The notes under the pieces were generated by a model. It was given only the letters and a program-made list of their open reading frames with translations. It was not told the DNA's origin and made no database searches. Shown here in pieces: positions 34,290-40,130 of a DNA stretch of 64,000 nt. This DNA comes from Reyranella sp. (GTDB lineage: Bacteria > Pseudomonadota > Alphaproteobacteria > Reyranellales > Reyranellaceae). Each line of letters starts with the position of its first letter. The first letter of the stretch is position 1. The translations under genes were made by a program, and so were the position numbers. The DNA lies in assembly GCF_017305915.1 (NCBI RefSeq), contig NZ_JAFKJN010000012.1, positions 124,001 to 188,000 on the forward strand. Reading direction: 5' to 3'.

Positions 34290-35315
34290 GTGAAAATCGA
34301 GCCCCGCCAGGTCGACGCCTTCCTGAAGAAGCCGGATCCGAAGATCCGCGGCGTGGTGATCCATGGCAATGACGACGGCCTGATCGCCGAGCGGGCGGCC
34401 CAGCTGGCGAAGACCGTGTGCGAGGACCTCAAGGACCCGTTCCGCGTGGTCGACATCGCCGGCGACGCGCTGAAGGGCGACCCGGCCAGGCTGGCCGACG
34501 AATTCGGCGCGATGTCGCTGATCGGCGGGCGGCGGGTGATCCGGGTGCGGCCGGCCGGCGAGGAATCGGCGGCGGCGCTGGAGAACCTGGCGCAGGCGGG
34601 TGCCGGCGATGCGCTGATCATCCTCGAAGGCGGCAACCTGACGCCGCGCTCGGGCCTGCGCAGCCTGGCCGAGACCGAGCCCAATCTGGCGGCGCTGCCG
34701 TGCTACGCCGACACGACGGAGGATCTCGAACGGCTGGTCGAGGGTGCCGCGCGCGCCGAGGGCTTCGTCGTGGAGGAGGATGCCCTCGCCTGGATGATCG
34801 ATCGGCTGGGCGGCGACCGCGGCCAGAGCCGCAGCGAGATCGACAAGCTGCTGCTCTACAAGGCCGACGACGCGAGCAAGACCATCAGCCTCGGCGACGC
34901 CGCTGCGGTGCTGGGCGACACCTCGGCGATGGATATCGACGACGTGGTCGGCGCGACCTTCGACGGCGATCTCGTGACGCTCGACCGCGCGCTCGACCGG
35001 GTGTTCGCCGAAGGCGGCAACGCGGTGCAGCTGGTGCGCGCCCTGCAGCGCCATGCCGACCAGTTGCACCTCGTCTCCGGCCACGCCAGGGGCGGCAACA
35101 TGGAAGCGGCGATGTTCAAGGCCCGCGGCCTGCCGCGCGGCGGCCCGGTGCGCCGGCGCTTCGAAGGCCATCTGCGCCGCTGGCCGCTGACGCGGCTCGG
35201 CCTGGCGCTGACGCGCATCCTCGACGCCGAGCTCGAGTGCAAGACGACCGGCCTCCCCGACCAGGCGATCGCGCGCCGGCTCTGCCTGTCGTTGGCTCGC
35301 GCGGCCGGGCGGTAA
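34290..35315 (+). CDS. holA: DNA polymerase III subunit delta
   Basis: A 341-residue clamp-loader subunit that opens the sliding clamp. VDAFLKKPDPKIRGVVIHGN at the start, GDALIILEGGNLTPRSGLRS, ALAWMIDRLGGDRGQSRSEI (helical linker typical of delta) and DDVVGATFDGDLVTLDRAL are characteristic. GTG start at 34290. The usual neighbour lptE is missing; two minus-strand genes separate it from leuS. It ends 39 bp from the convergent response regulator. Confidence 0.95.
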   Translation: MKIEPRQVDAFLKKPDPKIRGVVIHGNDDGLIAERAAQLAKTVCEDLKDPFRVVDIAGDALKGDPARLADEFGAMSLIGGRRVIRVRPAGEESAAALENLAQAGAGDALIILEGGNLTPRSGLRSLAETEPNLAALPCYADTTEDLERLVEGAARAEGFVVEEDALAWMIDRLGGDRGQSRSEIDKLLLYKADDASKTISLGDAAAVLGDTSAMDIDDVVGATFDGDLVTLDRALDRVFAEGGNAVQLVRALQRHADQLHLVSGHARGGNMEAAMFKARGLPRGGPVRRRFEGHLRRWPLTRLGLALTRILDAELECKTTGLPDQAIARRLCLSLARAAGR

Positions 35316-35323
35316 AGACTATC

Positions 35324-35345
35324 CCTCCCCATTCATAGGGGGAGG
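35324..35345. repeat. short hairpin, half-element of the CCTCCCC repeat family
   Basis: CCTCCCC-attcata-GGGGGAGG between the convergent holA and response-regulator genes. Same arm sequence as the ends of the 126-bp element at 12856-12981. Confidence 0.6.
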
Positions 35346-35354
35346 ATGCCTTCT

Positions 35355-36080
35355 CTAATCGTCGGGCGGCACGAACATGTAGCCCGCGCCGCGGACGGTG
35401 CGGATCGATGTCGGCCGCGCCGGATCGACCTCGATCTTGCGACGGATTCGCAGGATGCGGATGTCGATCGCGCGGTCGAACGCCTCCATCTCGCGATGGC
35501 TGGTGGTCTCGAGCAGCCAATCGCGGCTGAGCGGCCGGTTGGGATTCTCGGCGAACAGCTTCAGCAATTCGAACTCGCCGGCACGCAGCGGAACTTCCTC
35601 GCCGCCGAGCGATGTCATGCGCCGGCCGACCAGGTCGAGCAGGCACCTGCCCATGCGGATGCGCTCGCCCGGCGTCGCCGCCTGCGCGCCGCCGGCGCGA
35701 CGCAGCACCGCCTTGATGCGGGCGAGCAGCGCGCGCGCCTCGTAGGGCTTGGCGATGTAGTCGTCGGCGCCGGTCTCGAGGCCGACCACCTGGTCGACGG
35801 TGTCGTCGCTCGCCGTCACCATGATGATGCCCATGCGCTTGCTGCGCTCGCGCAGGTAACGCGCCAGGGAGAATCCGTCCTCGCCGCCGGGCAGTCGCAG
35901 GTCGAGCAGCACCAGAGCGGGCGGATCCTTCTCAACCAGCTTGCGCAACGCCGCGCCTGATTCGACTCCGGACGCGCGATAACCCTTGTCGTCCAGGAAA
36001 TCCACCAGGGTTTCCCGTTGAAACTGTTCGTCCTCGACCACGATGACGTGCGGGCGGGGATCTTTCGGCTTGGCGGCCAT
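35355..36080 (-). CDS. OmpR-family response regulator
   Basis: A 241-residue two-component regulator. The receiver domain (about 10-125) has acidic residues Glu16-Asp17, phospho-acceptor Asp60 (LVLLDLRLPGG), Thr in IMVTASDD and Lys in DDYIAKPYE. The C-terminal winged helix includes LRAGEFELLKLFAENPNRPL, DIRILRIRRKIEVDP and TIRTVRGAGYMFV. ATG at 36080. The large hybrid kinase on the other side of a 312-bp gap is its likely partner (TorR/TorS-like pairing by architecture only). A minus-strand terminator 58 bp upstream separates it from the small-RNA candidate. Confidence 0.94.
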   Translation of the reverse strand: MAAKPKDPRPHVIVVEDEQFQRETLVDFLDDKGYRASGVESGAALRKLVEKDPPALVLLDLRLPGGEDGFSLARYLRERSKRMGIIMVTASDDTVDQVVGLETGADDYIAKPYEARALLARIKAVLRRAGGAQAATPGERIRMGRCLLDLVGRRMTSLGGEEVPLRAGEFELLKLFAENPNRPLSRDWLLETTSHREMEAFDRAIDIRILRIRRKIEVDPARPTSIRTVRGAGYMFVPPDD

Positions 36081-36137
36081 GGCTCATCCTGCCGGGGCCG
36101 AGCGACAACCTCAAGAATACGCTCTAAGCCCCTGCAC

Positions 36138-36241
36138 AAAAAAGACGGCGCCCGAAGGCGCCGTCTGTACGGCCGGAGGTGTTGGGAGGTCCGGGCCGTG
36201 AGCGTTGGTGGTGTGAGGCCAACGCTTGGGGAGGAATGACG
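36138..36241 (-). ncRNA. candidate trans-acting small RNA with anti-Shine-Dalgarno loops
   Basis: About 104 nt on the minus strand. In RNA order: a single-stranded CAUUCCUCCCC; hairpin 1 (36226-36201, AGCGUUGG / CCAACGCU); hairpin 2 (36199-36169, stem ACGGCCCGGA / UCCGGCCGU) whose loop shows CCUCCCAACACC; and a perfect intrinsic terminator GACGGCGCC-UUCG-GGCGCCGUC-UUUUUU (36165-36138). A possible promoter lies upstream: TAAAAC at 36253-36248 and TTGGCG 16 bp before it. The CCUCC loops resemble alphaproteobacterial small RNAs carrying CCUCC-rich anti-SD motifs. No start-stop frame is supported. The family assignment is inference. Confidence 0.72.
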
Positions 36242-36297
36242 GGAAGCGTTTTAGCGCCGGCCGGTTTCTCGCCAATTGCGCCGATCGAGCAAATTGG

Positions 36298-36361
36298 TTT
36301 CGTCGGTAATGTTGATACCGCCGACGTTACCAACGAAACAATTCAGGTGCCCCACGTTACC
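36298..36361. promoter_or_regulatory. candidate operator cluster upstream of the hybrid kinase
   Basis: Inverted repeat TTTCGTCGGTAATGT (36298-36312) against ACGTTACCAACGAAA (36324-36338), 13 of 15 pairs with an 11-bp spacer. A further direct copy of ACGTTACC lies at 36354-36361, exactly 30 bp (about three helical turns) from the one at 36324. It lies 32-95 bp before the kinase start and just upstream of the small-RNA promoter, so it could control both. The binding protein is unknown; the neighbouring response regulator is the obvious candidate. Confidence 0.5.
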
Positions 36362-36392: not shown

Positions 36393-39300
36393 ATGGACGC
36401 CAGTCTCCAGATTTCGCCGCCCGATCCGGCGCGAGTCGACCGGGTGCTGACGGCGCGGCTGCTCGGCGGCCACACGCCGCTACGGCTGTTTTCCCTCACC
36501 GTCTGGGTGGTGTTCAGCATCGCCTATTGGGGCCTCGCCCCGTGGTGGATGATCGCCGGCCCCGCCGCGCTGCATATCCTGGCGATCGTGGGCTTCGTCT
36601 GGCTGAGCTGGGCCTATCCGCGCAATCCGGACGCTCGTTCGAACGAGGCCTGGCGCTGGCTGTACATCTCGTGCGCGGCGATGACCGGCATCGCCTACGG
36701 CGGCGGCGGCGCGCTCTTGTTCCTTCTGCCCTATCCCGATCCGCGGGTGCTGATCGCTGCCTGCCTGGCGCTGACCGCGGCGCTGGCGCCGGGCCGCGTC
36801 TACGAGCCGCGCAGCTATCTCGCCTTCGCCGGCTTCGACTTGAGCCTGCTGGCGGTGGCGGCGTTCCTGTCGGACGACCCGCTGTCGCTGGCGATCGGCG
36901 CCGGAGCGCTGATCTACCTGACGGCGCTCCTGATGCAGAACGCCTTCCACGTCCGCAACCAGCGCGCCCAGGTGGCGCTGGTCATGGCCAACGAGAATCT
37001 CGCCCGCCTCAACGCCCTGGCCGAGGCCAAGGCGCGGCTGGCGCACGATGCCCTGAACGACGCGATCGAGAGCCTGCCGATCGCGATCTCGCTGTGGACC
37101 GACGATCGGCTGATCCTGTGCAACGAGGCCTATGCCGGCTACATGCAGCACGTGCCGGAGGCGATCACGCCCGGCGTCACCTTCCGCACCGCCGCCCATG
37201 CCGCGGCCTACAAGCTGCCCCATCCGATCGCGCCGCGCGGCCGCGAGGAGGAGTTCATCGCCCGCGCCATCGAGCTGCACCAGAGCAACGGCGAGGTGGC
37301 GGAATACAAGCTCGGCCCCGACCGCTGGATGCGCGGCCAGGCGCGACGCACCAAGGCGGGCAGCATCGTGGTCAGCCTGGTCGACATCTCCGAGGTCAAG
37401 CGCCGCGAGAAGGAGGCGACCGACACCCGCGCGGTGCTGCAGTCGGTGTTCGACAATCTCAGCGACGGCGTGCTGCTCTACGAGGCCGACGGCCGATGGG
37501 TCTACCAGAACCCGGCGATGGCCAAGCTGCACAACATGTCGAACGACCTGCTGGCGACGCTGCCGACCTTCGCCGACATCGTCCATTACCGCGCCATGCG
37601 CGGCGATTACGGGCCGGCCGACCAGCTGCCGGGCGGGCTGAACGGCTGGATCCAGAGCCGGGTCCGGCGCTTCTCCGAGGCGATCGACCAGCCGCCGGAG
37701 CGGCGGCGCACCACCACCGGCCGCACCGTCGAGGTGACCTACCGGCGGCTCAGCGACGGCCGCGTGCTCACCATCCACCGCGACATCACCGAAATCGTCG
37801 AGCAGGAGGCGCGGCTCGAGGCCGCCCGCGCCGAATCGGAGCAGACGCGCCAGACCCTGCAGCGGGTGCTCGACAACATGATCGACGGCGTGCTGCTGCT
37901 CGACAAGGACCTCCGCTCGGTCTTCGTCAACCGCCAGGTCGACGAGTTCCTGCGCCTGCCGCCCGAGGTCTCGGGCGCCGGCAAGTCGGGGGTCGACGTC
38001 ATCCGCTTCCAGGCCCGGCGCGGCGACTTCGGCCCGGTCACCAACGAGCTCGAGATCGAGGCCAAGGTCGCCGAACGGATGGCGATCATGCGCAATCCCG
38101 GCGGCGCGCGCTACGAGCGGCGCACGATCTCGGGCCAGATCGTCGAGTTCAACTTCCGGCCGATCCCCGACGGCGGCATGCTGGCGATCTACCGCGACAT
38201 CACCCAGCTCAAGGAGCAGCAGGAGGCGATCGAAGCGGCGCGCGCCCGTACCGAGGCGGCGCAGACCCTGCTCGACGACGCGATGTCGAGCCTCGACGGC
38301 GGCGTCGGCATCTGGGACGCCGACGAGCGGCTGATCCAGTGCAACGCGGCCTACCGCTTCGTCTGCCGCGACATCCCCGAGATCGTCGAGCCCGGCACCA
38401 CGCTCGAGGTCGCGGCGCGCGCGGCGATGCGGGCGCAGTTCGAGCTGCTCGGCAAGCCGGTCGAGGAGCAGGAGGCCGATCGGCTGACCCAGCAGATCCT
38501 GGAGATCCATCGCCGCGGCGAGGGCGCGCTCGAGCTGCCCTACATGGAGCAGTCGTGGACCCGCATGACCTCGCGGCGCACCCGCTCGGGCGGCTTCGTG
38601 ACCCTATTCTCAGACATCAGCGAGTTGCGCCATCGCCAGCGCGACCTCAGGCGCGAGCGCGACCTCGCCAAGGCGGCGCAGGACGAGGCCGAGGCCGCCA
38701 ACCAGGCCAAATCGACCTTCCTCGCCACCATGAGCCACGAGATCAGGACGCCGATGAACGGCGTGATCGGCACCGCCGAGCTGCTCGAGCGCGAGCCGCT
38801 GATCGAGCGGCAGAAGCGCATGGTCGGCACCATCCGGAGCTCGGCGGCGGCGCTGATGCGCATCATCGACGACGTCCTCGACTTCTCCAAGATCGAGGCC
38901 GGCCGCATGGAGCTCGAGGAGGCGCCGTGCTCGCTGCGCGCGCTGATCCAGGGCGCCGCCGAGATGCTGACGGCGCAGGTCGAGAAGAAGGGGCTGAGGC
39001 TCACCACCGAGGTCGAGGCCGGCACGCCCGACTCCCTGTTGGCCGATGCGACGCGGCTGCATCAGGTCCTGTTCAACCTGATCGGCAATGCGGTGAAGTT
39101 CACCGAGGTCGGCAGCATCGCCGTGCGCGCCCGCGCGGTGGCGCAGGACGACGACACCGTCACCCTGGCGCTGAGCGTGCGCGACACCGGCATCGGCATG
39201 ACGCCCGAGCAGCAGTCGCGGCTGTTCAAGCCGTTCTCGCAGGCCGACAGCTCGACGACGCGGCGCTACGGCGGCACCGGCCTCGGCCTGTCGATCGTGC

Positions 39301-40130
39301 GGCGGCTGGCCGAGCTGATGGACGGCGATGCCACGCTCGAGAGCGCGCCGGGCGAGGGCTCGACCTTCACCGTCACGGTCACCGTGCGGCGCGGCAGCGC
39401 CGGCGCCATCGCGGCCGACAAGGCGGAGACGCTCAGCCTGACCGCCGACGGCATCCGCGTGCTGGCGGTCGACGATTCGGAGATCAATCTCGAGGTGCTG
39501 GTCGGCCAGTTCGAGGTGCTGGGGCTGGCGCTCGACACGGCGACCAACGGCATCGAGGCGCTGACCCTGTGGCGCGAGCGCAGCCACGCGCTGGTGCTGA
39601 CCGACATCCACATGCCCGACATGGACGGCTTCGAGCTGACCCGCCAGATGCGGGCCGACGAAAGCGCGCTCAACCGGCCGCGCACGCCGATCGTGGCGCT
39701 CACCGCCAATGCCCTGAAGGGCGAGGCCGAGCGCTGCCTCGACGCGGGCATGGACGACTACCTGACCAAGCCGCTGACCCTGGATCGCCTGCGCGAGGCG
39801 GTGGCGCGCTGGGCGATCGGCGACGCGACGCCTGCGATCGACCGCTCGGTGGTCGAGGGCATGTTCGGCGGCAATGCCGTGACGGTCGCCCGCGTGCTCG
39901 GCCGCTTCCGCGACGCCGGCGCCCGGCTGGTCGCCGAGATCGCGGCCGCCCGCCAGGACCGCGAGCAGCTCACCGAGCTCGCTCACAAGCTCAAGGGCGC
40001 CGCCCGCTCGGCCGGCGCCACGACCCTGGGCGATCTCGCGGCGACCGTCGAGAAGTCCGGCCGCGGCGACGACATCGAGGCCCTGCAGGCCGAATGGCGC
40101 CGGGTGGCCGCCGCCCTCAGCGCCGGGTGA
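36393..40130 (+). CDS. multi-PAS hybrid sensor histidine kinase with receiver and Hpt domains
   Basis: A 1245-residue kinase. Residues about 25-200 hold six or so membrane segments (MASE-like sensor). Then come about four PAS-type modules (around 225-330, 345-470, 475-600 and 615-745), each starting with a short helix and patterns such as [20 protein letters not shown]. The HisKA domain has [20 protein letters not shown] (His about 783); the ATPase domain has [19 protein letters not shown] and [10 protein letters not shown]. The receiver has [14 protein letters not shown] (Asp about 1071), and the C-terminal Hpt has [14 protein letters not shown] (His about 1198). It can run a full His-Asp-His relay to the regulator at 35355. 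Its 3' end overlaps the MATE gene by 14 bp. Confidence 0.95.

Follow-up and report, generated by a model that had tools for sequence, protein, structure and literature searches.

The origin of new bacterial small RNA (sRNA) genes is an open question, and release from the 3' ends of mRNAs is one proposed route. OmrA/B and MicF are sRNAs controlled by regulators of the OmpR/PhoB type, and repeats that end about 10 bases before the -10 element and take the place of the -35 element are the classic layout for activators of this class. Among alphaproteobacterial sRNAs, the alpha-r14 RNAs consist of three hairpins, each with an ultraconserved CCUCCUCCC, and the alpha-r14 RNA NfeR1 forms a feedback loop with the two-component system NtrBC (PMC10746234). 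The CcsR RNAs arise by processing of a transcript that also encodes a small DUF1127 protein (PMC10253847). We found no published account of sRNAs of Reyranella in the literature searched. In this study, we analyzed a 64,000-nucleotide stretch of DNA from Reyranella sp. (the window), in which a conserved, structured minus-strand RNA with C-rich loops lies beside an OmpR-family response regulator (RR) gene (Table 1). We infer its transcription from the sequence. The nearest NCBIfam models were OmpR/TorR for the RR and TorS/BarA for the hybrid sensor kinase (HK), both below their curated cut-offs. RR orthologues with 80-95% identity were present in Reyranella and Enhydrobacter genomes and MAGs. 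A terminator-like inverted repeat was also seen at 35323-35346, between the RR gene and a convergent ORF (34290-35315) that we take, by eye, to be HolA-like.

Table 1. Features of the RNA locus in the window.
Feature	Position	Strand	Basis or remark
Small RNA, about 100 nt (predicted transcript)	36138..36240	-	ends estimated by the -10 element (5') and the terminator (3')
Unpaired 5' pyrimidine tract CAUUCCUCCCC	36228..36238	-	UUCCC-type tract partly conserved
Hairpin 1, loop CCUCACACCA, invariant CACACC core	36201..36226	-	
Hairpin 2, loop CCUCCCAACACC (36178-36189), conserved CUCCCA core	36169..36199	-	
Intrinsic terminator: hairpin 3 and its U run	36138..36166	-	pairing retained at 100% in 14 homologues
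RNA promoter, -10 element TAAAAC	36248..36253	-	promoter alignment
Promoter-proximal box CGCAATTGGCGAGAAACC, a second candidate site for the regulator, where a -35 would be	36263..36280	-	
Distal box ATTACCGACGAAACCAAT, candidate RR site facing the RNA	about 36293..36310	-	
Box GTTACCAACGAAAC facing the kinase gene, related to the RNA-promoter boxes	36326..36339	+	
OmpR-family response regulator (RR) gene	35355..36080	-	
Hybrid sensor kinase (HK) gene, divergent: PAS_7 repeats, HisKA, HATPase, REC, Hpt	36393..40130	+	
RR's own promoter-like element TTGAGG-N17-CAGGAT	36085..36114	-	between RNA terminator and RR ATG

An earlier note on this DNA had described a minus-strand terminator located upstream of the RR gene. 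This terminator was borne out (36166-36138, minus strand; stem AGACGGCGCC-UUCG-GGCGCCGUCU, then a U run), and since it lies 58 nt upstream of the RR ATG, it does not end the RR gene. Two stable hairpins, one with an exposed loop, had been claimed to precede it together with a single-stranded CCUCCCC; both hairpins are present, the exposed loop being that of hairpin 2, and the CCUCCCC is unpaired within 36228-36236. The proposed extent of the RNA, 36138-36253, was right in its 3' part and wrong in its 5' part, because 36253-36248 is the -10 element, which puts the RNA start near 36240. The fold of 36138-36238 has a free energy of -45.2 kcal/mol, compared with -24.2 +/- 2.9 kcal/mol for shuffled sequences (z -7.2), and none of 200 shuffles reached the native stability. 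The interval of the earlier note gave a z of -6.5.

We next consider how far the RNA is conserved. A covariance model (R1) was built, and then a second one (R2) from 14 sequences. The covariance-model search found the RNA in 18 of the 65 Reyranella genomes. It adjoins the RR in 16 of these, lying between the RR and the HK, which is divergent from the RR at 16/16 of these loci, and the three-hairpin element stands upstream of RR orthologues in about a dozen distinct species. The expectation that relatives with the kinase/regulator pair would keep the hairpins thus held in 16 genomes and failed in the outgroup loci L041, L042, and L050, where the divergent pair is kept and the RNA is absent. Several R1 matches (L121, L127, L129, L132-L134, and others) were rejected as unrelated terminators. 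A sample of 289 genomes of the class, searched with strict filters and few candidates scored per genome, gave no convincing match outside the genus; the loops of its sole weak extra-genus match (G226, E 0.009) do not match. A plasmid collection search gave no match.

Covariation was assessed in a model-guided alignment of 14 homologues; MAFFT had misplaced hairpin arms in the divergent ones. Of the 27 pairs, 12 change on both sides, with 43 cells carrying double changes, in an alignment that is fitted to the model and so favours the structure somewhat. Pairing was found in 94.4% of alignment cells, against 28-57% when the structure was slid by 1-3 columns. By eye, AU is replaced by GC at three outer pairs of hairpin 3 and CG by UA in hairpin 1. 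Most stems covary, whereas the loop cores are near-invariant: CACACC in hairpin 1 and CUCCCA in hairpin 2 are 92-100% identical in 12 main-clade sequences. Thus, the CCUCC loop motif named in the earlier note is replaced by CACACC and CUCCC(A) as the conserved cores, and the 5' CCUCC is kept only in the nearest relatives. As in known C-rich-loop sRNAs, conserved unpaired C-rich motifs are held within stable covarying stems. There were 14 GU pairs and 4 AC mismatches, which favours the minus strand as the RNA strand. These counts also oppose a plus-strand reading as a kinase leader, which was rejected since the kinase box points away and a kinase transcript would begin beyond 36339; a plus-strand ATG after GGGGAGG is an arrangement not kept in L008 and L009. 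In one sub-clade (L011, L012, L015, L021, and L044), the hairpin-1 loop is an identical UUCACAUACCCC, CUCCC is gone from loop 2, and a long third hairpin without a U run abuts the RR promoter. Termination and anti-Shine-Dalgarno pairing are therefore not universal, and the function may have shifted in this sub-clade.

To place the RNA among known families, Rfam was searched at gathering and relaxed thresholds, and only sub-threshold matches to sbrA, Atu_C3, and CcsR1 were worth naming. The alpha-r and cuckoo-type families proposed for comparison in the earlier note did not account for the RNA, as both the alpha-r14 and CcsR models stayed below threshold. For alpha-r14 (RF02344), there was no window match at gathering, and the best match in the same genome was elsewhere, with 22.7 bits against a cut-off of 58.8. 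The Reyranella RNA shares with alpha-r14/NfeR1 (Smr14C) of Rhizobiales the three hairpins, the C-rich loop sequences resembling anti-Shine-Dalgarno motifs, and a promoter of its own, and the wiring of NfeR1 into NtrBC (PMC10746234) would be a further likeness. It differs in its locus and promoter and was found only in Reyranella here; CCUCCUCCC, by which all three alpha-r14 hairpins are defined (PMC10746234), is absent, and the loops are CACACC, CUCCCA, and of the UUCG type. The best homologue scored 25.7 bits with the CcsR1 model (cut-off 65.3), and the best match in the window's own genome, 21 bits, was at another place. The transcript of CcsR1-4/cuckoo and CcaF1 (CIN1 locus) likewise joins a small-protein gene to one or more C-rich hairpin RNAs and to a terminator (PMC10253847). 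Unlike CcsR, the Reyranella RNA lacks CCUCCUCCC, its promoter looks response-regulator-like rather than RpoH-dependent, and the linked ORF is absent in one clade; where ORFs are linked, they have no Pfam family above cut-off, and DUF1127, the family of the CcsR and CIN1 proteins, was not found. A further hallmark of CcsR RNAs is their release from the small-protein mRNA by RNase E. In the sbrA RNA of Listeria (RF01489), too, a single C-rich hairpin precedes a UUCG terminator, but the match of 27-31 bits is below the 45-bit cut-off and rests largely on the terminator. With no standout match outside the genus and no Rfam family at threshold, this is a new structured RNA restricted to the genus Reyranella. 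Because it resembles alpha-r14 and CcsR in organization but fails their defining tests, we report it as a new family that would work in a similar way and belong to neither. Weak R2 matches (38-42 bits) were also seen in the recA 3' UTR at L164 (G000:C50:97800-97890) and L163 (G067:C43), where CACACC or CACGCC is followed by a CUCCCC-loop hairpin and then by a strong terminator; these may be chance matches or may mark another RNA built in this style.

The earlier note had proposed a plausible promoter for the RNA and possible control by the adjacent two-component system. A generic sigma-70 scan of the region upstream of the RNA detected no promoter, whereas comparison of the homologues revealed a conserved promoter of the activator type. 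Its layout is constant: GTAACC-N2-3-CGAAACC(AA), 21-22 nt, CGCAAT...GAAACC, and then the -10 element, the TA of which lies 27-28 nt after CGCAAT in 14/14 aligned promoters, including those that drive the small ORF described below and its paralogues. Applied to the window, this layout puts the boxes at 36296-36310 and 36263-36280. In L007, L009, and L148, the distance from the box to CGCAAT is 21-22 nt when counted from the downstream half-site and 30-31 nt from the upstream one. The direct-repeat half-sites end about 10 nt upstream of the -10 element and there is no good -35, as in OmpR/PhoB-class activation; in this promoter layout and in the link to an OmpR-family regulator, the locus resembles OmrA/B and MicF. 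The combination of distal box and CGCAAT occurs once in the genome. The box alone is found at 5 sites and looks promoter-like only at the present locus and perhaps at L167 (G000:C26:157086-157099), where a second GTAACCGACGAAAC box and, later, GGCGCAATTG stand upstream of an ORF containing MSNTLMRRWFDEVW; L167 is a possible regulon member. In the outgroups L042 and L050, similar half-sites (CGAAACAC-ACGCAACAATTC) lie between kinase and regulator. In G076, which has no RR orthologue, the half-sites upstream of the small ORF (L148) read GATACC in place of GAAACC, a coordinated change that suggests a switch of the controlling regulator. Taken together, the repeated half-sites at fixed distances from the -10 element make the proposed control plausible, and the adjacent pair of kinase and regulator appears to activate the RNA promoter.

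Since 16 genomes have the RNA directly upstream of the RR and in the same orientation, the RNA could instead be a cis-acting leader in which termination at 36143 governs read-through into the RR by attenuation or autoregulation. We regard this as improbable, because the RR has its own promoter-like element between the terminator and the ATG, which is kept in orthologues without the RNA as well as in those with it, no alternative antiterminator fold was among the predicted structures, and copies of the RNA exist without the RR (G027:C290, G036, and G076). With just about 7 nt between the -10-like part of this RR element and the ATG, the mRNA of the RR may have little or no leader.

The earlier note had correctly set the RNA between regulator and kinase; it had missed that in most relatives the RNA is part of a small-protein mRNA. 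At 10 of the 16 RR-adjacent loci, a small ORF lies on the RNA strand between the HK and the RNA, and in an eleventh (L044) it is truncated. The ORF ends 11-34 nt upstream of the RNA. The ORF also immediately precedes the three RNA copies that do not lie near an RR orthologue (G027:C290, G036:C565, and G076:C113), which indicates that the RNA travels with the ORF and not with the RR. The product, about 85 aa long (55-92 aa), has a single hydrophobic segment at its N-terminal end, and its Pfam matches were all below cut-off. The ORF is an uncharacterized small membrane-protein gene, and the RNA is its 3' UTR in most RR-adjacent genomes. The window's own genome has no copy of it. In the five nearest relatives, window included, the ORF is absent and the RNA follows directly after the same conserved promoter. 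These ORF-less genomes form one clade inside the RNA-bearing lineages of the RR gene tree (100/99 support), and a single ORF loss is the simplest reading, the deep branches of that tree being weak. On this reading, the RNA probably originated as the tail of an mRNA for a small membrane protein. Eleven small-ORF matches were also observed in one genome (L205-L210, G088), several of them in tandem beside dnaJ; the copies examined in L205 share the promoter layout, and their 3' end is mostly reduced to the terminator and the C-rich tract.

These arrangements raise the possibility that the RNA is only a stabilizing 3' UTR or terminator of the small-protein mRNA and that the copy in the window clade is a decaying remnant with no role in trans. 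The position of the RNA directly after the ORF at the 10 RR-adjacent loci and in the three copies elsewhere is in line with this, as is the retention of only a terminator with a C-rich tract by most ORF-array copies in G088. However, the five ORF-less species keep the promoter, both hairpins, and the loop cores, with compensatory changes in the stems, and one would not expect the loops to persist in a decaying remnant. We therefore consider this explanation unlikely for the window clade, although in the other lineages the RNA might have no role beyond that of a 3' UTR.

We favour, with moderate confidence, a free-standing, RR-activated sRNA gene of about 100 nt that acts in trans via its C-rich loops and is a released 3' UTR. 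In this mechanism, the phosphorylated RR, or a close paralogue, would bind the tandem GTAACC/CGAAACC boxes and activate the minus-strand promoter, and the transcript would run from near 36240 to the end of the terminator at 36138. In sister lineages, this promoter would drive the small membrane-protein mRNA that ends in the RNA. The unpaired C-rich tracts UUCCUCCCC, CUCACACC, and CCUCCCAACACC could then base-pair with mRNAs at G-rich ribosome-binding regions, and this pairing, probably with Hfq, would block translation. Hfq is present in the genome, and the RNA is probably Hfq-dependent. As pairing partners, the start regions of the RR and HK were no better than the background of other ORF starts. 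The short motifs CACACC and CUCCCA are conserved in the way that protein-binding sites are, and the repeated C-rich loops might instead act as a decoy that titrates an RNA-binding protein rather than pairing with mRNAs. We know of no RNA-binding protein in this group that matches these motifs, and we judge a decoy improbable.

For the kinase/regulator pair, an uncharacterized two-component system in a poorly studied family, the trans-acting sRNA would provide a candidate output together with a candidate DNA-binding motif. The chances appear even that ORF loss turned the 3' UTR RNA of an RR-controlled gene into an independent sRNA, the effector of the divergent TorS/TorR-like system. Sister species hold both the intermediate (promoter, ORF, and RNA) and the product (promoter and RNA), with promoter and RNA alignable between them, so that the step of release from an mRNA 3' end is directly testable in Reyranella.
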